Source of the DNA: a virus
Length of the DNA stretch: 34,047 nt
Reading direction: 5' to 3' (one strand)
IMG/VR virus record: IMGVR_UViG_3300021076_000018
Span: 1 to 34,047 of that record
Under the pieces are notes generated by a model. That model was given only the letters and a program-made list of their open reading frames with translations, was not told the DNA's origin and made no database searches. Each line of letters begins with the position of its first letter. Position 1 is the stretch's first letter. This document shows positions 2,283 to 32,530 of this stretch, one piece after another. Both the position numbers and the translations under genes were made by a program.

Positions 2283-2420
2283 CATCCTCCCCGCCCTAAA
2301 GGACGGAGATTCCTACAACTAGCCTGTCATGTCCGACAGGGGATCTGAACTTTTTAAGAATATTTTTAGCGGCATTCACATCACGATCATGTTCACATCC
2401 ACATTCCGAACAAGTCCAAT
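2281..2420 (-). ncRNA. Candidate omega RNA (reRNA) at the tnpB 3' end
   Basis: In IS605-family elements the guide RNA for TnpB overlaps the 3' end of tnpB and the right end of the element. Here the minus strand reads through the tnpB stop at 2296 into CCGTCC-TTTA-GGGCGG at 2306-2291, then GGAGGATGTCAA up to the border. The guide would come from the flank, about 2279 downwards, inside the neighbouring gene. The 5' limit is not visible and is only a guess. Confidence 0.45.
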
Positions 2421-3363
2421 TCCTTATTCCAAGGTCTGCGATACCTTTCGGCCTCGAATCGGGCAGAGCGCCGCAATCCGAACAGACTTGGGAGGTAAAT
2501 CTTTCGTTCACTTCTTCAAACCATGCGCCATGCTTAACAGCCTTGTACGCCAGTTGTGTTCGGAAGGACGACCAACCCGCATCGAGTACGGACTTCGCCA
2601 TGTTGGTCTTGGCGAGTCCGGCGGCATTGACATTGCCGACCGCGATATAGTCAAACTCTTGAACGATGCGCGTCGAGAGTTTGTGGTGAAAATCGTTTCG
2701 TTGATTCTTGATCTTGGCGTGAATCGACGTAACGCGGCGCTTCTTATTCGCCCTTTGCGCAACGGCCAGCGATTTCTCTTCGCCCCGGTAGATGCGCTGC
2801 GCCTCGATCTTCTCGCCAGTAGACAACGTGGCGAAGTCCTTCAGGCCAAGGTCGATGCCGACGCCGCGCACTGGTTGGCGAACGCTGGTGGCATCAACAA
2901 CCACATCAATCACGATGTTCAGGAACCAATTGCCGCGCGAGTCTTGGGAGAAATTCGTGCCGTCTTTGATCTTACCTTCCGGCAGGGCGCGACTGTTAAA
3001 CACACGGAAGGTGTTTCCAGCAAACCGGAAGGCATCGCCTTCGCGCTTCAACTCGCGGCCCTTGAGCGGCACCCAACCAAGGTTCTTCTTGCCACGGTAA
3101 CGCAGGTACGGGCGTTTCTTCTGCGCTCGCGACTTGGCATATTGCTCGCAAACAGCATTGATAGTGCCGGAGTGCAAGCCAAGTTCTTTGCTGCTGCCAG
3201 CGGTGAGCTTGTTCAGATCAAAGCCGGTATGCCAGCGCCGACCGAATCGCAAAGCATCTTTTTGCCTATCGTTACAAAAATTGAACACGTAATTTACTGC
3301 ACGCGCCTGCTTATTCAGCAAGCCGTTCAGAGATTTTACGCGGTAACGATAGACAAGGATCAT
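2296..3363 (-). CDS. tnpB: TnpB RNA-guided endonuclease, rearranged RuvC site
   Basis: A 355-residue TnpB. The RuvC-I aspartate is at about D171 in GVGIDLGLKDF. A zinc finger has C294, C297, C318 and C321. The last aspartate is in HDRDVNAAKNIL near D328. The usual RuvC-II glutamate position (xxEDLN) reads AVGNVNAAGL, with glycine at 243. Glutamates instead occur at 283-287 in FEEVNERFTSQ, matching described TnpB groups with a relocated catalytic glutamate, so the protein may be active. The ATG overlaps the stop of the ribbon-helix-helix gene (ATGA), suggesting coupled translation. The family cuts DNA under omega-RNA guidance and helps retain the element. Confidence 0.9.
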   Translation of the reverse strand: MILVYRYRVKSLNGLLNKQARAVNYVFNFCNDRQKDALRFGRRWHTGFDLNKLTAGSSKELGLHSGTINAVCEQYAKSRAQKKRPYLRYRGKKNLGWVPLKGRELKREGDAFRFAGNTFRVFNSRALPEGKIKDGTNFSQDSRGNWFLNIVIDVVVDATSVRQPVRGVGIDLGLKDFATLSTGEKIEAQRIYRGEEKSLAVAQRANKKRRVTSIHAKIKNQRNDFHHKLSTRIVQEFDYIAVGNVNAAGLAKTNMAKSVLDAGWSSFRTQLAYKAVKHGAWFEEVNERFTSQVCSDCGALPDSRPKGIADLGIRNWTCSECGCEHDRDVNAAKNILKKFRSPVGHDRLVVGISVL

Positions 3364-3491
3364 TTTTGCTTTTTCAAATATTCGTCAATAGCACGACGAA
3401 CTAATTCAGCGACCGACAATCCGGTTTTATCGGAGAGTGATTTAAGAGCAGATTTTAATTGCTCTGGTAGGTATATATTTGTACGGTTCAT
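3360..3491 (-). CDS. Ribbon-helix-helix (CopG/Arc-type) DNA-binding protein upstream of tnpB
   Basis: A 43-residue protein starting NRTNIYLPEQLKSALKSLSD and ending AELVRRAIDEYLKKQK. This is the classic ribbon-helix-helix pattern: a short beta strand with alternating polar residues (RTNIYL) followed by two helices. Its stop overlaps the tnpB start by 4 bases. Such proteins bind DNA as dimers and usually autorepress. The probable job is to repress its own operon and so limit TnpB. It lies inside the element's ends, so it belongs to the IS and not to the phage. Confidence 0.85.
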   Translation of the reverse strand: MNRTNIYLPEQLKSALKSLSDKTGLSVAELVRRAIDEYLKKQK

Positions 3492-19484: not shown

Positions 19485-19958
19485 TTATTCAGTATCAGCC
19501 GGCTTTACTGATTCGATCGCTTGAATCAATCGCCCAACTTTCCATGTCGCTTTTGTTTCAATTCCCAAATCAGTAGCGATTTTTCGCAATTGAGCTGCGT
19601 TCATGTTAAGCAGATCTGGATTTCCTTCCTGCGGAATCTCTGATGCTTCTTTCGCTGCGCTTGGAGAATTATGCCAGCCAGGACCAAGATCGGAATCTGC
19701 TTCTGCATCATCGACTATGCAATAAGTGCCATCGATGTGATATTTGTATTTTGGATATTCAACGAACTCGGGAGATGCACTGATCGGCTCTGCAACTTTT
19801 TGCAGAGAACTTCCATTCTTTTCGTACCACTCTTCACCAAGGGCATCTTGTTCTTCGCGATCTTGAACAATGACAGCCTTCAATTCCTTGTGATATACCC
19901 ATTTCGGAAATTCGACGAATTTCTGTGTTTCATGGCCGCTTGGTTTATAACCTGACAT
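19485..19958 (-). CDS. Virion-region protein with two repeated motifs and a SAP/HeH-like C-terminus
   Basis: A 157-residue acidic protein. An imperfect duplication is visible: FVEFPKWVYHKELKAVIVQD...LGEEW and FVEYPKYKYHIDGTYCIVDD...LGPGW. Each copy looks like a small beta unit of about 33 residues. The C-terminus, NAAQLRKIATDLGIETKATW followed by KVGRLIQAIE, resembles a helix-extended-helix nucleic-acid-binding motif (SAP/HeH). The ATG at 19958 has TGGAGA upstream and is preferred to an in-frame start at 19997. It follows the coat gene. A head-tail connector or DNA-end-binding role is possible. Confidence 0.65.
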   Translation of the reverse strand: MSGYKPSGHETQKFVEFPKWVYHKELKAVIVQDREEQDALGEEWYEKNGSSLQKVAEPISASPEFVEYPKYKYHIDGTYCIVDDAEADSDLGPGWHNSPSAAKEASEIPQEGNPDLLNMNAAQLRKIATDLGIETKATWKVGRLIQAIESVKPADTE

Positions 19959-20025
19959 TGTAATCTCCAGTCTTTTAAAATACACCGGAACTTTCATCCC
20001 GGTGTGAATTGCTTACAACTGACAA

Positions 20026-21622
20026 TTAAATCTTGTCAGGAACACGAACGGCCCATTCCGGCCGCAGCAAGTGATAGCCGTACAGCACATCAAGACGAGT
20101 GATGAATTGATCCGTCTGGACATTGTAGGCCGTGATAATACGCAACGACGTATTATCGTAGACTTCGCGATATGCCTCATGGACGCCTTTTGGCAACTCC
20201 AAATCGGCAGTAACCATCGTAACGGCCTCCGGAACATAAGCCACGTTCATCCGGTATTGAGCCGCGGAATTAAAGTCGAACGTGATTTGTGCGCCGTTGA
20301 TCGGAGACGTGGTAACTGTCTGATATTGAACTGTCGAACCGCCGACAGGTGGAGTCAATGCCGGATAGATGGACAATGAAGTTGCGTTTGTCGCAGCAGC
20401 CGCAGTCACAACAAAGCGTTGCAACGATGCAGAGGTCTGTTTGGTAACGCGATTTACCGCATATACTCCGGCAATCGTGAAGGTATCGCCAGCAACGACA
20501 GGACCAGAAAGCGCCGATATCGTCAAAGTTGTACCTGTCTGACTACCGCCGCTCACGGTCGGATTGGTTACATAAGTACCAGTTGTGTGTGAAAGCGTGG
20601 TTTGATCCATCATCCAGTCGAAACCAAGCGCATTTTTCATCTGGCCAGTCATGTACTGATCAGATAACCCTGACGCCGGGTTAAACAACCCTGCCAAGCT
20701 GCCAACGATACGAGCTTGCGTGATCGGGTCAAGCAATATCTTGCGACGACCACCAGGTGCCGAGTTTTGATCCAGAACAGCGCCGGCGCCCAAGAATGTA
20801 TTGATATCCGGAGACAGAACATTGTTCGCACCATCAAACTTCGCCGAAAGACCGGAGCAAGGAGTTTGGTTATCAGTATAAAGCGTTTGCGACGGAATCA
20901 AACCATCGAATGCGCCCATAATGTCGGCCGCTATTTGGCCTGCGGTATTATTGATCGCAGGCATAAGAACACGTTCAGAGTAGTCATCAATCGACAGAGA
21001 GCGTTCTGCACTCGAAAATTGAATATCTACACCAACTTGATTAGCCATGACAAGACTAATCTTGGTTTCGTTCGTGCCTTGAACCGAAGCAGCAGGACCG
21101 CGACGGACTGTGAAGTCATTCGGCAAGCGGATACGCAAGCTGGAACCTATTTTAGCTCCAGAACGCGCAAAGTCAGCGTCATACTGACGATCGATTGATT
21201 TCAAGAAAGCATTGCTATTCTTAAAAAGACGCACCTTTTGTTCGCTCTGAGTCGCTATTTCAGAACCGTCCTTTCGGACTGCTGCATGTTTCCATGCAGA
21301 GCAGACTATCTCATAACCCCGAAGGGTTCAATGCACTTCGGATCGCTTGATCCTACGACCTTGCGGTCTAGTCGTTACACCTTTTCTGATGTGGACAAAC
21401 GCCTCCATTGAGATGTTTTCCAACATTGCAGTTTCTGCATTTCAGAACTTGGCTCGGTATTGTCATGATATTGTTATGATATGATTTTTGATTCTACATC
21501 ATAACAATATTTTAGAGTTCCACCGAATTCACACTGTTTTCATTCAGAGTTTCCTCTGAAAGGCGCAATTTTGTCTACGCCTCACGAGTTATCATATCAA
21601 TCGTGAGAATCTGATTACTCAT
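20026..21622 (-). CDS. P22-type major coat protein, interrupted by a group I intron
   Basis: Exon 1 is 21577-21622 (AGGAG ribosome-binding site, ATG at 21622; SNQILTIDMITREA plus one base). Exon 2 is 20026-21233. Joining them across the intron creates a leucine codon (T+TG) and gives 417 residues running ...ITREALRLFKNSNAFLKS. This replaces an unspliced reading that ends at TAG after 15 codons. The body (GAKIGSSLRIRLPNDFTVRR, then SIDDYSERVLMPAINNTAGQ) matches P22 gp5-type coats. An inserted beta segment (GDTFTIAGVYAVNRVTK) recalls the P22 I-domain region. It follows the scaffold gene with its ribosome-binding site inside the scaffold stop. Confidence 0.93.
21234..21576 (-). ncRNA. Group I intron (IA-like), 343 nt, without an ORF
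   Basis: Elements seen on the minus strand. P1: exon AGGCGU (21582-21577) pairs with GCGCCU (21566-21561), ending in the conserved U.G at the 5' splice site. P2: TCAGAG-GAAA-CTCTGA (21559-21544). P4: UUCGGU with ACCGAG. P5: extended by a 13-bp inverted repeat (21498-21510 with 21468-21480). P7: GACTA (21373-21369) with TAGTC (21308-21304). P7.1/P7.2-like hairpins, and P3 as CAGUGU with GCAUUG. P8: AACCC-UUCG-GGGUU (21328-21315). P9 and P9.1 have GAAA loops (21299-21282, 21279-21268). The last base is G (omega G), and only that junction restores the coat frame. Confidence 0.93.
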
Positions 21623-27863: not shown

Positions 27864-28029
27864 TCATTCCACCACTACCAATTTTCTCTTTTGCATGTTC
27901 CAAGCTCTGCACCATTGCCCACAGCAATTGAGCAACCGCGTTCATATTTCCGTGTTGCAGTTCGATAAGTCTTTCCAGCGCTTTATCGCATTGTGCTTTC
28001 GCTGCAATCTTCTTTTCTACTGTGCCCAT
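27856..28029 (-). CDS. Small helical protein between terminase and portal
   Basis: A 57-residue helical protein (GTVEKKIAAKAQCDKALERL, then NAVAQLLWAMVQSLEHAKEK). The ATG at 28029 shares a base with the terminase TAA. The 3' end overlaps the portal start. There are no membrane segments. Function unknown. The tight overlaps on both sides support its being real. Confidence 0.65.
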   Translation of the reverse strand: MGTVEKKIAAKAQCDKALERLIELQHGNMNAVAQLLWAMVQSLEHAKEKIGSGGMNG

Positions 28030-29384
28030 TACCGCCCCATCCATTGAGAGCTACCAATCGTAGCTGGACCACGCTCAGGTTTCTTCATCTCGAATTTAGG
28101 TTTGTTGCGATCCTTAACGAGTCCGGGGAATATCTCACTCATTCCCCAAATCATCGCGTCTGCACGGTTAGGGCTTCGGTCTCCCAAATATCCCATCGTG
28201 GAAAATGCACATAGCTCATCTTCCAACTCTTGAAAAATGCCGACGTGGCGTATTTTGCCAACGTCGGCTAAGGCCGCAATCGGATCTGCCCGAACTGCTT
28301 TGCCACGTGAAGCCGTTACCATTTTAAAAGGAGTATTCGGGCGCGATGTCTGAATCACGTGCTTTACCATCGCACCACCATAATTTATTTCACCGACTAC
28401 GATATCGGCTTGGTGTCGGTCATAAGCCGCGGTTACTACATTACCCCAGGTAGACGGACCTGCTGTAAGAGTCAAGTCCTCCAACACATAACCGATTCCA
28501 TCAGTTCCGAGCGCAACAACGACAATCCCGATCGCATCAGCAGTCGAATTTTCATCGGCAGCACCGGAAGGATCAACTGAAATAATTACTCTCAGAAAAT
28601 CCGGCAATTCCTGTCCATCAACAACGCGCCATTTATCAATTTCGCTATCTGACCAAAGCGCATTAGGTGTTGCGTCGGCAAATTCTCCACGCAGGAATCG
28701 ACGTTGTAATCGCGCAGATTGCGATTTAAGAGTATCCAAATATCCTGCAGCAAGGTTGATAGCATTGCTTTCAGGATTGATCTGCATCGATACATAATCT
28801 TCGGGTCGCGGAAGATTCACACGTGTTTCAGGATCGCGTCGCTCGATGAAAATTCGATATGTCCAATGCACTTTTGATGTCGGGTTGCAATCATAAAACA
28901 TGCGTGGGATCATCGGTTTTTCCCTGCCATCAACGTTCTGCATGACCTTTTGAGCCAGACGAGTGACAGCAATATCTCTTGATGCGAGAGGAATCTGGCT
29001 ACATTCGTTCAAATAAATTGTGCTGAACTCTTGACCAAGAATCTTCTCCGTGCGTTCCTTGTCGTCCAACCCACCAAACCAAATTTGCGATCCGTTTCGA
29101 AACTCCGCATACCAATCTGTTTTATTTATCACGTATTCCGTATTAGGGAAACAAAGACGCATTACTTTTGGGAACGTGTCTTGAATAATCGAATTTTTAA
29201 CGTGATTAAATCGAAACCGCAAAATCGCATGACGACTTTTTGATGCTTTCAAAGCTCTTGCTATTACCGATCTTGTCAAAATGAATGTTTTTCCAGATCG
29301 TGCGCCACCCCAAAGCATGCCGTGCGTTGCCGTTCCGGATAGGAGCGACAATGCTTCGTGCTGCTTTGAGGTTAGCTCTAGCAT
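28029..29384 (-). CDS. Terminase large subunit
   Basis: A 451-residue packaging ATPase/nuclease. Walker A is GGARSGKT near residues 26-33, and Walker B is STIYLNECSQI (acidic E near 127). A motif III-like region follows in the ATPase half. The nuclease half starts at RVIISVDPSGAADENSTADA with an acidic residue, then DIVVGEINYGGAMVKHVI and ADAMIWGMSE. It drives DNA translocation into the procapsid and cuts the concatemer. It is transcribed just before the small helical protein and portal, in P22 order. Confidence 0.93.
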   Translation of the reverse strand: MLELTSKQHEALSLLSGTATHGMLWGGARSGKTFILTRSVIARALKASKSRHAILRFRFNHVKNSIIQDTFPKVMRLCFPNTEYVINKTDWYAEFRNGSQIWFGGLDDKERTEKILGQEFSTIYLNECSQIPLASRDIAVTRLAQKVMQNVDGREKPMIPRMFYDCNPTSKVHWTYRIFIERRDPETRVNLPRPEDYVSMQINPESNAINLAAGYLDTLKSQSARLQRRFLRGEFADATPNALWSDSEIDKWRVVDGQELPDFLRVIISVDPSGAADENSTADAIGIVVVALGTDGIGYVLEDLTLTAGPSTWGNVVTAAYDRHQADIVVGEINYGGAMVKHVIQTSRPNTPFKMVTASRGKAVRADPIAALADVGKIRHVGIFQELEDELCAFSTMGYLGDRSPNRADAMIWGMSEIFPGLVKDRNKPKFEMKKPERGPATIGSSQWMGR

Positions 29385-29385
29385 G

Positions 29386-29871
29386 TTAGCTGTAGTTCAG
29401 TTTTGGAGCGCTGACCAGAATCACCGGCGATGCGCCTGCGGTCTGAACAGCAAATTCCACTGTGTCAATATATCCAGCAGTGGTGGACAGCGTGCAAGCT
29501 CCGCCAACACGCAGGAAGATGGTCCCGGCTCCTGTCAAGGTTAGAGTGCGTGAACCAGTACCGTCCTGCGTGAACTGAACTACCCATTTTTGGCCAGCAA
29601 TTAGGTTTGTTGGCGTGGAAAATGTAACGTTGGCAGTCAGCGTTCCGAGGATTACCAATGAGTTATTGATCTGTGCGGCATTCAGGACAACCGTTGCCGA
29701 GAATGGAACCGATACTGTGGGAGGGGCGAATTGCGCCATGTTTTGAGTTGTTACATACTCATCTTGTGGAAATACACCACTCCCCAAATTAGTGCTGCAA
29801 GGAAAACGTTCATTGCCAGTGAGGGGCAATGTCACTGCCGGCATGTCGCCGTTCCCATCGAAGTATCCCAT
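29386..29871 (-). CDS. Beta-rich probable virion protein upstream of terminase
   Basis: A 161-residue protein with alternating hydrophobic residues (TVVLNAAQINNSLVILGTLT, then GQKWVVQFTQDGTGSRTLTL). It probably forms a beta sandwich or helix-like domain. From memory, similar Gly/Thr-rich domains occur in phage tail or decoration proteins. The CTAGGAG ribosome-binding site lies before the ATG, and the stop is one base from the terminase start. Function unknown. Confidence 0.6.
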   Translation of the reverse strand: MGYFDGNGDMPAVTLPLTGNERFPCSTNLGSGVFPQDEYVTTQNMAQFAPPTVSVPFSATVVLNAAQINNSLVILGTLTANVTFSTPTNLIAGQKWVVQFTQDGTGSRTLTLTGAGTIFLRVGGACTLSTTAGYIDTVEFAVQTAGASPVILVSAPKLNYS

Positions 29872-29929: not shown

Positions 29930-30187
29930 TTACTTTTTACCAGTCTTGTCACGTCGCGCTACAAAACTGTTCATTGATTCTTTTTTCTTTCCTTCGCCTA
30001 ATACTTTATTTGCCTTGGCATCAATCTTTGACTTCTCTCCATCAGATAGCTTGCCCTTTTCCTCCATCTGCGTTGCACGAGCCTTAGCGTTGGCTGCATG
30101 GCTTTTATCCGGCATTGGATAGGCACGCTTACTGGGTTCGCCGAATTCTTTCTTCGGCATCTTGTCGCGTGCTTTTGTGGTTAGCAT
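29930..30187 (-). CDS. Small lysine-rich phage protein with scaffold-like C-terminal tail
   Basis: An 85-residue, very basic protein. The front has KARDKMPKKEFGEPSKRAYP and PDKSHAANAKARATQ, a pattern conserved in small phage proteins near terminase genes. The tail ESMNSFVARRDKTGKK resembles the scaffold C-terminus. A GTG at 30196 overlapping the previous stop is an alternative start to the ATG at 30187. Function unknown; entry into the procapsid through the tail is suggested. Confidence 0.7.
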   Translation of the reverse strand: MLTTKARDKMPKKEFGEPSKRAYPMPDKSHAANAKARATQMEEKGKLSDGEKSKIDAKANKVLGEGKKKESMNSFVARRDKTGKK

Positions 30188-30192
30188 CACGG

Positions 30193-30462
30193 TCACTTAT
30201 AGGTTTTCTTTGTCTTTTCGCGCTTTGCTACCCACTGATCCATGCGCGAACCTTTTGGCTCAACCGGCGAAACCTTTGGCTTCTTTGACATCATTCCCGC
30301 ATCCTTGACACCAGATTTTAATGGTTTTGCATCGACTCCAGCTGCGGCTCCACCGCGTCCACCGGAATTGCCGATTCTCGTCGTATCCTTTCCGCCGTTT
30401 TTGTCGGTTGACTTCATTTTCTTTATTTCGCCATCGATCGGCTTACCCGTTTCCATCTTCAT
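30193..30462 (-). CDS. Small basic disordered protein with scaffold-like C-terminal tail
   Basis: An 89-residue Lys/Gly-rich protein, probably unstructured (RIGNSGGRGGAAAGVDAKPL), ending PKGSRMDQWVAKREKTKK. The ATG at 30462 has AGAGGTGAT upstream and overlaps the end of the preceding gene by 6 bases minus one codon; an earlier in-frame ATG is less well supported. The tail is nearly the same as in the next gene upstream. Function unknown. Confidence 0.65.
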   Translation of the reverse strand: MKMETGKPIDGEIKKMKSTDKNGGKDTTRIGNSGGRGGAAAGVDAKPLKSGVKDAGMMSKKPKVSPVEPKGSRMDQWVAKREKTKKTYK

Positions 30463-30466
30463 CAAA

Positions 30467-31000
30467 TCACCTCTTCGCGGTTTTATTGCGTTTGTCCATC
30501 CATTGATCAAGCCGACTTCCGGAAGGCTTCACTGGCGCTGGTTTTGGCCCCTTGGTTATCATCTTGCCGGTATTTTCTGCGGATTTTTTGATCGGCTTGC
30601 CGTCTTGTTTGTTGGCAGGCGATGTGGTGCTGAAATTGGTTGTTTTCTTCGGAGGAGATTCTTTTGTTGCCGCTTTTGTATCGCTTCCAGGGTTCTTTGT
30701 GGAAACTGCGCCGTCCTTGTCTTTGATCGGCGATTTCGTATCACCAACCATATTTGACTTGTCAGCATCAACCGAGATTTTTTTGGATTTTTCGATCACA
30801 GGAATATTAATTACATGGACTATTGCTGACATTTTCTGTAATTCTGTGTTCGCGTGTTTCTTTGCCGCCTTGTGCCGTTCTTTATCGGCATGGACTTCGG
30901 CGGCCTCCTTTAGCGTCTCCATGTCCCTACGAGCGCGATATTCCTTGCCCTCTTTGGTATCTTCCCATCGCGTTGGCTTCACAGCGATTTCTCCGTTCAT
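30467..31000 (-). CDS. Basic, largely disordered protein with scaffold-like C-terminal tail
   Basis: A 177-residue protein. The first 55 residues are helical and charged (TRWEDTKEGKEYRARRDMET, then VHADKERHKAAKKHANTEL). The rest is a Lys/Ser/Pro/Thr-rich linker. The last residues, SGSRLDQWMDKRNKTAKR, match the scaffold tail pattern. There is no obvious ribosome-binding site at the ATG. An in-frame TAA lies three codons upstream, so the start cannot be much earlier. It is the first gene after the terminator-like hairpin. Confidence 0.65.
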   Translation of the reverse strand: MNGEIAVKPTRWEDTKEGKEYRARRDMETLKEAAEVHADKERHKAAKKHANTELQKMSAIVHVINIPVIEKSKKISVDADKSNMVGDTKSPIKDKDGAVSTKNPGSDTKAATKESPPKKTTNFSTTSPANKQDGKPIKKSAENTGKMITKGPKPAPVKPSGSRLDQWMDKRNKTAKR

Positions 31001-31004
31001 GGTA

Positions 31005-31202
31005 GTTTAAAAGCGAAAACGCCGCTATCCGTATTGAACGGATGCGGCGAATCATTGAGAGTTGCATCTTTTCTCATGTTCTATTTCCATGGGCCGTTGC
31101 GGCTCTATCGGACTAGTTCTGCCATCCCGGCAGTACGTGTACAACTTTTAAGTAACGAATTTATCGTTACAAATTGCGACAAAAGGCGCTAAAACTCTGC
31201 GT
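31005..31202 (-). ncRNA. Candidate structured leader/small RNA before the late genes
   Basis: This is the only sizeable interval without a gene outside the intron. The transcript expected from the promoter at 31209-31238 would contain the hairpins GTAACGA-TAAAT-TCGTTAC (31170-31152), CTGCC-GGGAT-GGCAG (31133-31119) and GCCG-CAA-CGGC (31103-31093), and then a terminator. A 12-codon ORF starting near 31091 is present but unsupported. Length about 190-200 nt. Confidence 0.5.
31008..31049 (-). terminator. Rho-independent terminator-like hairpin
   Basis: The minus strand forms CGCCGC-AT-CCGT, loop TCAAT, then ACGG-AT-A-GCGGCG, an 11-12-bp stem with one bulged base (31049-31020). It is followed by GTTTTCGCTTTT. 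The T run is interrupted, so termination may be partial. It would end transcription from the promoter at 31209-31238 just before the gene starting at 31000. Confidence 0.65.
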
Positions 31203-31208
31203 AATCGG

Positions 31209-31238
31209 ATGATACTTGTGGATAAACATGGTTGTCAA
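31209..31238 (-). promoter_or_regulatory. Sigma70-type promoter
   Basis: A perfect TTGACA (31238-31233), an 18-base spacer and TATCAT (31214-31209) read on the minus strand. Start of transcription is expected near 31202. The -35 lies just after the stop of the small membrane-protein gene. This is the clearest promoter noticed in the window. Confidence 0.65.
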
Positions 31239-31243
31239 TAAAT

Positions 31244-31405
31244 TTATTTACAGCAAACGACAATAAAAGCCGCAATCACAATAGCGGTCGGCATGCTCAA
31301 AGGAAATAACATGAAGAACAATCCTAAAGCTGCAAGTACCGGTATCAGAGCCATGATTACGATCAATATGCGTATTCCCGATGGAATGGATTTCCAAAGT
31401 CTCAC
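31244..31405 (-). CDS. Small two-segment membrane protein after TerS
   Basis: A 53-residue protein starting with GTG at 31405, overlapping the small terminase stop (GTGA). After a short basic start (RLWKSIPSGIR) it is almost wholly hydrophobic, with segments ILIVIMALIPVLAALGLFFM and TAIVIAAFIVVCC. It is probably an inner-membrane protein. A holin-like or exclusion function cannot be told apart. The base overlap supports translation. Confidence 0.6.
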   Translation of the reverse strand: MRLWKSIPSGIRILIVIMALIPVLAALGLFFMLFPLSMPTAIVIAAFIVVCCK

Positions 31406-31746
31406 AGGTTTTCATCCACCGGCAAAAGTTGCACAATCAAAGCGCCATCTTTGCCGGACCCCTTGTGCTCAACTTGCGCTAATTTTGGATGTACGTAAGG
31501 CGCTGCGCTTTTTGCGGCATCAAGCCGGATATCATGCGGCAAATCCTTGTTACGCAGCGTTTGGAGAAGATATTCGAGTGGAGTGATACCGGAGGATTGG
31601 ACTGCTTCAATTATCGCCGCAGTGCGCTTGTTTGGCACCCCTGCCTTGCGTCCGGAGCCTGGCCGCTTGCCGCCTTTGGTTGACTTTTCTACTTTATCAA
31701 TCTTTTGGGCAACTTTATTTGTTTGTTTTGCAATAGTGCTATCCAT
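31402..31746 (-). CDS. Probable terminase small subunit
   Basis: A 114-residue protein. A basic N-terminal region contains GGKRPGSGRKAGVPNKRTAA, followed by helical parts ITPLEYLLQTLRN and IRLDAAKSAAPYVHPKLAQ. The GRKxGxPN and PYxHPKLA elements are common in small DNA-binding proteins annotated as phage small terminases. It would recognise the packaging site. The ATG at 31746 has GAGGAA 7 bases upstream; a GTG at 31749 is possible. It follows the GroES-like gene. Confidence 0.75.
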   Translation of the reverse strand: MDSTIAKQTNKVAQKIDKVEKSTKGGKRPGSGRKAGVPNKRTAAIIEAVQSSGITPLEYLLQTLRNKDLPHDIRLDAAKSAAPYVHPKLAQVEHKGSGKDGALIVQLLPVDENL

Positions 31747-31748
31747 CA

Positions 31749-32048
31749 CTATTCCTCGATAATCGCCAGGATATCCTCTTCCCGCATAATCTCTAAAGCA
31801 ACTTTCTCGCCGTCGCTATCGATCACCAAAGGCATCGAAGACTGTTTCATGAATGCAATTTTATCACCTACCTTGACGGATGGTGTGTGAAATATTCCGG
31901 TCATCAGAGGCATTCCAGGACCGACCGCCACTACATCCCCAAACACCAGTCCTTGCGGCGGCTGCCTTGGCATTACAAATCCAGGAATAATACTGTCGGT
32001 CTTAATTTCCCGTACAGCGATGCGGTTCAACAAGGGCTTAACGTTCAT
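31749..32048 (-). CDS. GroES-like cochaperonin
   Basis: A 99-residue protein of the Cpn10 size. NVKPLLNRIAVREIKTDS matches the GroES N-terminal strand. The region TDSIIPGFVMPRQPPQGL corresponds to the mobile loop. GDVVAVGPG, VKVGDKIAF and EIMREEDILAIIE match the core in order. No GroEL is present, so it would cap host GroEL, as T4 gp31 does. Coat proteins of this type fold with chaperonin help, so it probably aids virion assembly. AAGGAT precedes the ATG. Confidence 0.85.
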   Translation of the reverse strand: MNVKPLLNRIAVREIKTDSIIPGFVMPRQPPQGLVFGDVVAVGPGMPLMTGIFHTPSVKVGDKIAFMKQSSMPLVIDSDGEKVALEIMREEDILAIIEE

Positions 32049-32099: not shown

Positions 32100-32201
32100 T
32101 TAACCATTGCCATCATCGAACCAAGTAGAAAATAAACTACCCACTAGTAGGGCCAAAATCACCCAAGTTATCATGCAAAGGATAATAGTCTCGGTAGTCA
32201 T
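32100..32201 (-). CDS. Tiny single-span membrane protein
   Basis: A 33-residue protein: TTETIILCMITWVILALLVG plus a short polar end (STWFDDGNG). The ATG overlaps the upstream stop by 4 bases, and GGAGG lies 5 bases before it, the best ribosome-binding site in this stretch. Function unknown. Confidence 0.6.
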   Translation of the reverse strand: MTTETIILCMITWVILALLVGSLFSTWFDDGNG

Positions 32202-32530
32202 ATATCCTCCAGAAGACGTGCGTTATAGGGTGGCAATAAAGCAACAATCAGCTTGTCGCACCATTCGTCGAACTTATCCTCTGATTTTTGATCTGTGATA
32301 TCACCTATCTTGCGAAAAATAAGTTCCTGGCGATTTTCGTTGATATACGCCAACTCCCGCAAAGCACGATACCTCTCCGCGTCTGACCAAGTTTCATTTG
32401 CCATTTTACATGCCTCCAATTCTTTATCAAGCCTAATCGCATCAACAATGCAAATATCTTCACCGAAGTACTTACATGCCTGAAAGTCTTTCCACTTTTG
32501 CCAATTTACAATTCTTTTTGCTGTGTTCAT
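32198..32530 (-). CDS. Hypothetical protein
   Basis: A 110-residue charged helical protein (WSDAERYRALRELAYINENR, then CDKLIVALLPPYNARLLEDI) with no recognised motif. It overlaps the genes on both sides by 4 bases. It belongs to the small-gene run before the cochaperonin. Confidence 0.6.
   Translation of the reverse strand: MNTAKRIVNWQKWKDFQACKYFGEDICIVDAIRLDKELEACKMANETWSDAERYRALRELAYINENRQELIFRKIGDITDQKSEDKFDEWCDKLIVALLPPYNARLLEDI

Follow-up and report, generated by a model that had tools for sequence, protein, structure and literature searches.

The window, i.e., the whole stretch of 34,047 nucleotides that was analysed, carries a promoter, a leader and a terminator in close succession on its minus strand. 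Read 5' to 3' on that strand, the order is terS, an A/T-rich stretch, the promoter, the leader, the terminator hairpin, the interrupted T run TTTTCGCTTTT and the first gene (Table 1). The preliminary description had proposed a near-consensus promoter TTGACA-18-TATCAT, and this was borne out at 31238-31209 on the minus strand, where a sigma70-type promoter matches the consensus at 11 of 12 positions. The A/T-rich stretch directly upstream of the -35 element may function as an UP element. Judging from the promoter spacing, transcription likely starts at about 31202, and the 3' end of the RNA likely lies at about 31012, which gives a transcript of approximately 190 nt. The strong hairpin with a broken T run and the three perfect hairpins in those 190 nt, also claimed earlier, were both recovered on folding, the latter with stems of 7, 5 and 4 bp. 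Less than 40 nt separate the terminator from the start of the first downstream gene. By eye, a candidate Q binding repeat was noted (TTTATTGACA and TTTATCCACA, 8 of 10 positions identical, 16 bp apart) that covers the -35 element and the spacer, and a candidate -10-like pause sequence, CAGAGT, lies near +4 to +9 (A2 and T6 are present; 3 of 6 positions match); neither could be identified as a true element.

Table 1. Features of the cassette, of the neighbouring genes and of example Q-like genes in related loci (L numbers).
Feature	Position	Strand	Basis
GroES-like co-chaperonin, directly before terS	31749-32048	minus	PF00166
Terminase small subunit (terS), upstream of cassette	31402-31749	minus	phrog_641, E 7e-8
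36-codon very hydrophobic frame in the terS-promoter gap, no clear ribosome-binding site	31354-31244	minus	
A/T-rich stretch, possible UP element	31239-31250	minus	sequence reading
-35 element TTGACA	31233-31238	minus	sequence
-10 element TATCAT, spacer 18 nt	31209-31214	minus	sequence
Transcribed leader, multibranch fold closed by pairing of the 5' and 3' parts	31056-31202	minus	RNA folding, z -2.9
Leader hairpin 1, 7 bp, loop 5	31152-31170	minus	folding
Leader hairpin 2, 5 bp, loop 5	31119-31133	minus	folding
Leader hairpin 3, 4 bp, loop 3	31093-31103	minus	read from fold
Intrinsic terminator hairpin, 12 pairs, one bulge, -20.5 kcal/mol	31020-31049	minus	folding
Broken T run TTTTCGCTTTT	31009-31019	minus	sequence
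First gene past the terminator, 177 aa (p177)	30467-31000	minus	ATG 31000
Small lysine-rich protein, 105 aa (p105)	30193-30510	minus	ORF
p88, phrog_16160	29930-30196	minus	E 2.1e-24
Terminase large subunit (terL)	28029-29384	minus	
Q-like gene, L032	638-1063		
Q-like gene, L093	2751-3125		
Q-like gene, L191 (KS9 gp47)	3007-3405		

For p177, a GTG start at 30982, with GGAG 8 nt upstream, appears more likely than the ATG at 31000. The products of p177, p105 and p88 (29930-31000, minus strand) are encoded in tandem, are lysine-rich and have a common C-terminal motif like MDQWVAKREKTKK; from their sequences, the three are probably related to each other. Further downstream, the same strand carries terL, portal, scaffold-like, capsid, tail, DNA-ejection and endolysin genes down to about 5.7 kb, and approximately 26 kb of late genes lie behind the cassette. 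As in the lambda type, a sigma70-type promoter heads co-directional late genes, although terS lies upstream of it, and an intrinsic terminator close to this promoter precedes the first of the late genes. The earlier placement of the cassette just ahead of the late block therefore stands in part: terL, portal and capsid genes follow it, but terS and the GroES-like gene precede it. The cassette is located inside the packaging genes, which is an unusual place. A phi29-like packaging RNA was considered for the position between terS and terL and was dropped, as the window has terS and terL genes of the ordinary kind and there is no other pointer to such an RNA. The window portal matches P22-type portals and has only one relative in viral_contigs, where the first downstream gene, p161 and the GroES-like gene have none.

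Several other features of the window were recorded. A group I intron (21282-21586, minus strand; Rfam RF00028, 67.6 bits) lies directly before the capsid ORF (20026-21234), which would leave a very short first exon for the capsid gene, and an endonuclease VII/HNH-like ORF (19485-19997) is found just after the capsid ORF. Near the left end there is a transposase-like ORF (2296-3363, minus strand; phrog_506, E 1e-67) surrounded by plus-strand ORFs of unassigned function. A very stable RNA fold (z -6.0) is predicted across the start of terL (29251-29397, minus strand).

The leader without the terminator has a folding energy of -42.1 kcal/mol and a z of -2.9 (-3.1 and -2.9 with repeated shuffles). 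When the minus strand was tiled in stretches of 147 nt, an equal or lower z was found in 7 of 226; one of these overlaps the leader itself, and the first-ranked one is the group I intron region. Eight cassette RNAs of relatives were also folded; the window leader is longer than these, and a lower z was seen in L032 only. Compared with the cassettes of relatives, the leader is unusually long and structured. Folding further showed that the 5' arm of the terminator is unpaired until its own 3' arm has been transcribed, and hence no antiterminator arm, riboswitch-like or otherwise, is seen in the leader. No Rfam 15 family matched the leader at gathering score, a blastn search of 31330-31000 against 169 loci returned chance matches and no relative of the leader, and a DNA search of the cassette region among phages gave no match.

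Taken singly, neither the promoter nor the terminator count is remarkable. On both strands of the window, one promoter with at least 11 of 12 matches was found (shuffle mean 0.6), as well as two terminator-like sites with a folding energy of -18 kcal/mol or lower (shuffle mean 0.6). A strict pair, defined as such a promoter and a terminator of -18 kcal/mol or lower lying 45-280 nt apart, was found a single time in the window, whereas 40 dinucleotide shuffles yielded none. With looser thresholds, the window holds one sense pair, which is the cassette, and one weaker antisense pair. In a 5-kb region, the stock promoter scan listed 10 sites where 7.5 would be expected. The hairpin at 31049-31020 was missed by the stock terminator scan, probably because of its bulge, and the scan made for this analysis is conservative, as it did not score lambda tR' at the expected place. 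A terminator-like hairpin with TTTTT (-20.3 kcal/mol) was also seen inside the terL coding sequence (28268-28239, minus strand).

The same kind of cassette was found in relatives, where a small gene whose product has a predicted fold like that of phage 21 Q (Q21) is followed by a promoter, an RNA of about 55-220 nt, a terminator and the first late gene. No common sequence was found in the RNAs between promoter and terminator, and their length varies. In L029, L031, L032, L043/L044, L060 and L076, the cassette stands directly before a p88 homologue, and in a second set (L203/L216, L219 and L220/L221), it is likewise followed by one. The window cassette also precedes p88, but with two further lysine-rich genes in between. 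Of 85 loci with a p88 homologue, only 7 have the cassette before p88; in other relatives, the Q-like gene and the cassette are placed before terS and terL. In the few TerL relatives in which both terminase genes were matched, little or nothing separates terS from the terL that follows it, unlike in the window.

A terminator within 330 nt followed 17 of 25 Q-like genes compared with 64 of 300 control ORFs, and a promoter plus terminator followed 13 of 25 compared with 8 of 300. The controls were sampled from 366 ORFs in the same loci, and the 25 genes include near-identical ones (e.g., L104/L106/L108/L110, L094/L095, L102/L149 and L138/L139). Because the families had been found partly via their cassettes, the test was repeated on fresh loci. 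A fresh scan yielded 26 loci, of which seven on contigs already seen were left out. Among the remaining 19, a terminator was present in 15 (29 of 200 controls, sampled from 222) and a promoter plus terminator in 12 (11 of 200 controls). Counted by hand per cluster of similar DNA, the values were 10 of 13 and 7 of 13, respectively. TerL relatives overall showed no enrichment of the cassette (5 of 66 sense, 2 of 66 antisense) or of terminators (30 of 66 sense, 25 of 66 antisense), and no Q-like ORF was found in 14 loci from bacterial genomes.

Isolated phages have similar layouts. In Burkholderia phage KS9, TTGCGA-17-TACACT and a terminator lie behind gp47. PAE2, with a portal 49% identical to that of the window, has PAE2_56 (phrog_3412) followed by TTGACA-17-CAGAAT and a terminator, and in EBPR podovirus 1, TTGACA-17-CAGAAT and a terminator are located directly before terS, with gp41, of no clear family, in the Q position. 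The protein in this position thus differs among isolated phages. In DSL-LC05, neither a promoter nor a terminator was found in one stretch scanned before terS.

The genes upstream of the relatives' cassettes fall into two unnamed profile families with products of 120-140 aa. The L032 type corresponds to phrog_19609, which has no assigned function and includes KS9 gp47. AlphaFold models were made from 10-row alignments for L093 (A1, pLDDT 79.5) and L032 (A2, pLDDT 72.8). Phage 21 Q (6p18_Q) was the best PDB match of both, with Z 9.4, rmsd 6.3 and 106 aligned positions for L093 and Z 10.8, rmsd 4.1 and 116 aligned positions for L032, although Z values of 9-11 are middling and can be common among helical proteins. 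For the L032 model, ranks 1-7 were taken by the seven Q21 entries, followed by structures of sigma region 4. In Foldseek, all E-values for the Q-like models were above 0.05 and thus non-significant. The L032-type (A2) profile matches SigW region 4 (E 6e-4), and L094 matches Sigma70_r4 (E 9e-4, below Pfam's cut-off). Both matches agree with the likeness of helices 3-6 of phage 21 Q to sigma region 4 that is described in the accessible part of the Q21 report (PMC6606751). A Q21 fold over the whole chain, as best PDB match, is thus predicted for the two modelled proteins, both of which come from relatives. On the basis of predicted fold and position, the two families (phrog_19609/KS9 gp47 and the L093/L104 type) are probably Q-class antiterminators. 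A literature search, which covered mostly titles and the openings of abstracts, returned no paper that describes this cassette or identifies phrog_19609 as a Q protein.

It had been stated earlier that no Q-like gene is visible in the window, and profile searches agree with this. PF06530 (Phage_antitermQ) had no match at E 1 in 35 records, the window among them, the phrog_19609 profile found nothing in the window, and the two custom profiles of the Q-like families gave best E-values of 0.16 and 0.37 against the window ORFs. The gene p110 (32198-32530) was considered as the missing Q and rejected, with E 0.37 to profile s1, no Pfam or NCBIfam family and a weak PHROG match only. The gene directly before the window promoter is terS rather than a Q gene; the cassette therefore does not conform strictly to the lambda layout. 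The 34-kb record may be a fragment, and a Q-class protein of this phage would probably be encoded in the part missing from the contig.

The best reading of the cassette, and a moderately probable one, is a lambda PR'/tR'-like switch, i.e., a late promoter and a terminator close behind it, under Q-type antitermination. Host sigma70 RNA polymerase would start at about 31202 and, unaided, would stop at 31020-31009 and release an RNA of about 190 nt. A Q-class antiterminator would load onto the polymerase at the promoter and allow read-through of the terminator, and the p177, p105, p88, p161, terL, portal, capsid, tail and lysis genes would then be transcribed. This supposes an active cassette, efficient termination and a Q-class protein encoded by the phage. 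Since the cassette resembles those of relatives in kind, stands before p88 as it does there and has about 26 kb of late genes behind it, Q-type control is the best explanation. The PR'/tR' logic put forward in the preliminary description can thus be kept in part: genes of Q21-like predicted fold precede the same cassette in relatives, but a Q gene is found neither in the window nor before its promoter. Lambda 6S RNA, with 194 nt, is similar in length to the RNA of the window. This agreement, to which attention had been drawn, is probably a coincidence, as the RNAs of related cassettes range from about 55 to 220 nt and no sequence common to them was found. The PR'/tR' reading, strong as an analogy but unproven in the case of this phage, is partly supported.

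The structure of the leader suggests a different possibility, namely that the cassette is the gene of a free phage small RNA, with its own promoter, a structured RNA of about 190 nt and its own terminator. Such an RNA would have host or phage mRNAs as targets in trans, or would serve as a decoy, with the downstream genes transcribed from elsewhere or by leakage. A leader that has a more stable fold than its shuffled versions even when the terminator is left out, closes on itself from 5' to 3' and exceeds the folded RNAs of relatives in length (and all but L032 in z) would fit this, as would the lack of an adjacent Q-like gene. This is nevertheless rather unlikely, since the leader has no relative in 169 loci and no Rfam family, and relatives keep the layout while the length and sequence of the RNA vary. 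The terminator, moreover, abuts the first gene, a placement that a free RNA gene does not need. The interruption of the T run, on the other hand, fits a leaky attenuator or insulator that works without an antiterminator: a constitutive promoter would be followed by a broken-U terminator that passes a fixed fraction of polymerases and also stops transcripts from terS, whose transcription could come in from upstream. The lack of a Q-like gene in the window would fit this as well. However, similar broken-tail terminators stand behind the relatives' genes of Q21-like predicted fold, and the hairpin within terL would cut the yield again without processive antitermination, so that this reading, too, is considered unlikely.

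In HK022, the put RNA consists of two adjacent hairpins that act in cis on the polymerase. The leader of the window, with three hairpins, the first about 30 nt into the transcript, and an unusually stable fold, might modify the polymerase in the same way as it is transcribed, and no Q would be needed, in keeping with the searches of the window. If so, this phage, with its cassette inserted between terS and terL, would have a second, RNA-based solution at a place where its relatives rely on proteins of Q21-like predicted fold. Known put elements, however, head early operons, the leader has no sequence relative in the 169 loci, and relatives with Q-like genes have shorter leaders; a cis-acting leader is therefore quite improbable. 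Least probable is classical attenuation, in which a leader peptide or a ligand would switch the terminator via an alternative antiterminator hairpin. A 12-codon frame was seen by eye in the leader, but no ribosome-binding site was seen before it, and no arm competes with the terminator.

Q-type control of the cassette, taken as the preferred reading, would extend the lambdoid late switch of promoter and terminator to uncultured phages with P22-like portal proteins. It offers a concrete function for unnamed genes, i.e., phrog_19609, KS9 gp47 and the L093/L104 type, and the probable Q-class antiterminators among such genes are more useful than the window element alone. An annotation rule follows: an unnamed gene for 120-140 aa, then a promoter, a short RNA and a terminator, may be read as a late switch, and the rule can be applied without sequence similarity to known Q proteins.

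Among known systems, AlpA of Pseudomonas aeruginosa is an antiterminator that recognises sites within the alpBCDE promoter, after which the polymerase can read through an intrinsic terminator close ahead of the first gene; in the accessible part of the source, AlpA is described as unrelated in sequence to lambda Q and to other antiterminators (PMC7969949). Unlike the window cassette, alpBCDE is a chromosomal cell-lysis locus. One AlpA entry is among the structure matches of the Q-like models, with a low Z of 5.2. Phage 21 Q is the best predicted-fold match of the proteins encoded upstream of the relatives' cassettes, at 11-17% identity in the structural alignments. Its binding element is given as a 6-bp direct repeat in the accessible part of the report (PMC6606751), and no element of this type was identified at the window promoter. 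In Pseudomonas phage YA3, the available text places a promoter after a Phage_antitermQ gene, a terminator 224 nt downstream and the late genes behind it, from which its authors inferred lambda-like control (PMC7326022). According to the same text, the Q gene of YA3 is present and adjacent and the lysis genes come first, unlike in the window. With respect to lambda itself, the window differs in having no adjacent or in-window Q gene and in having terS before the promoter; it shares with PR'-6S RNA-tR' and Q a sigma70 promoter, a short terminated RNA and a terminator ahead of the late genes.
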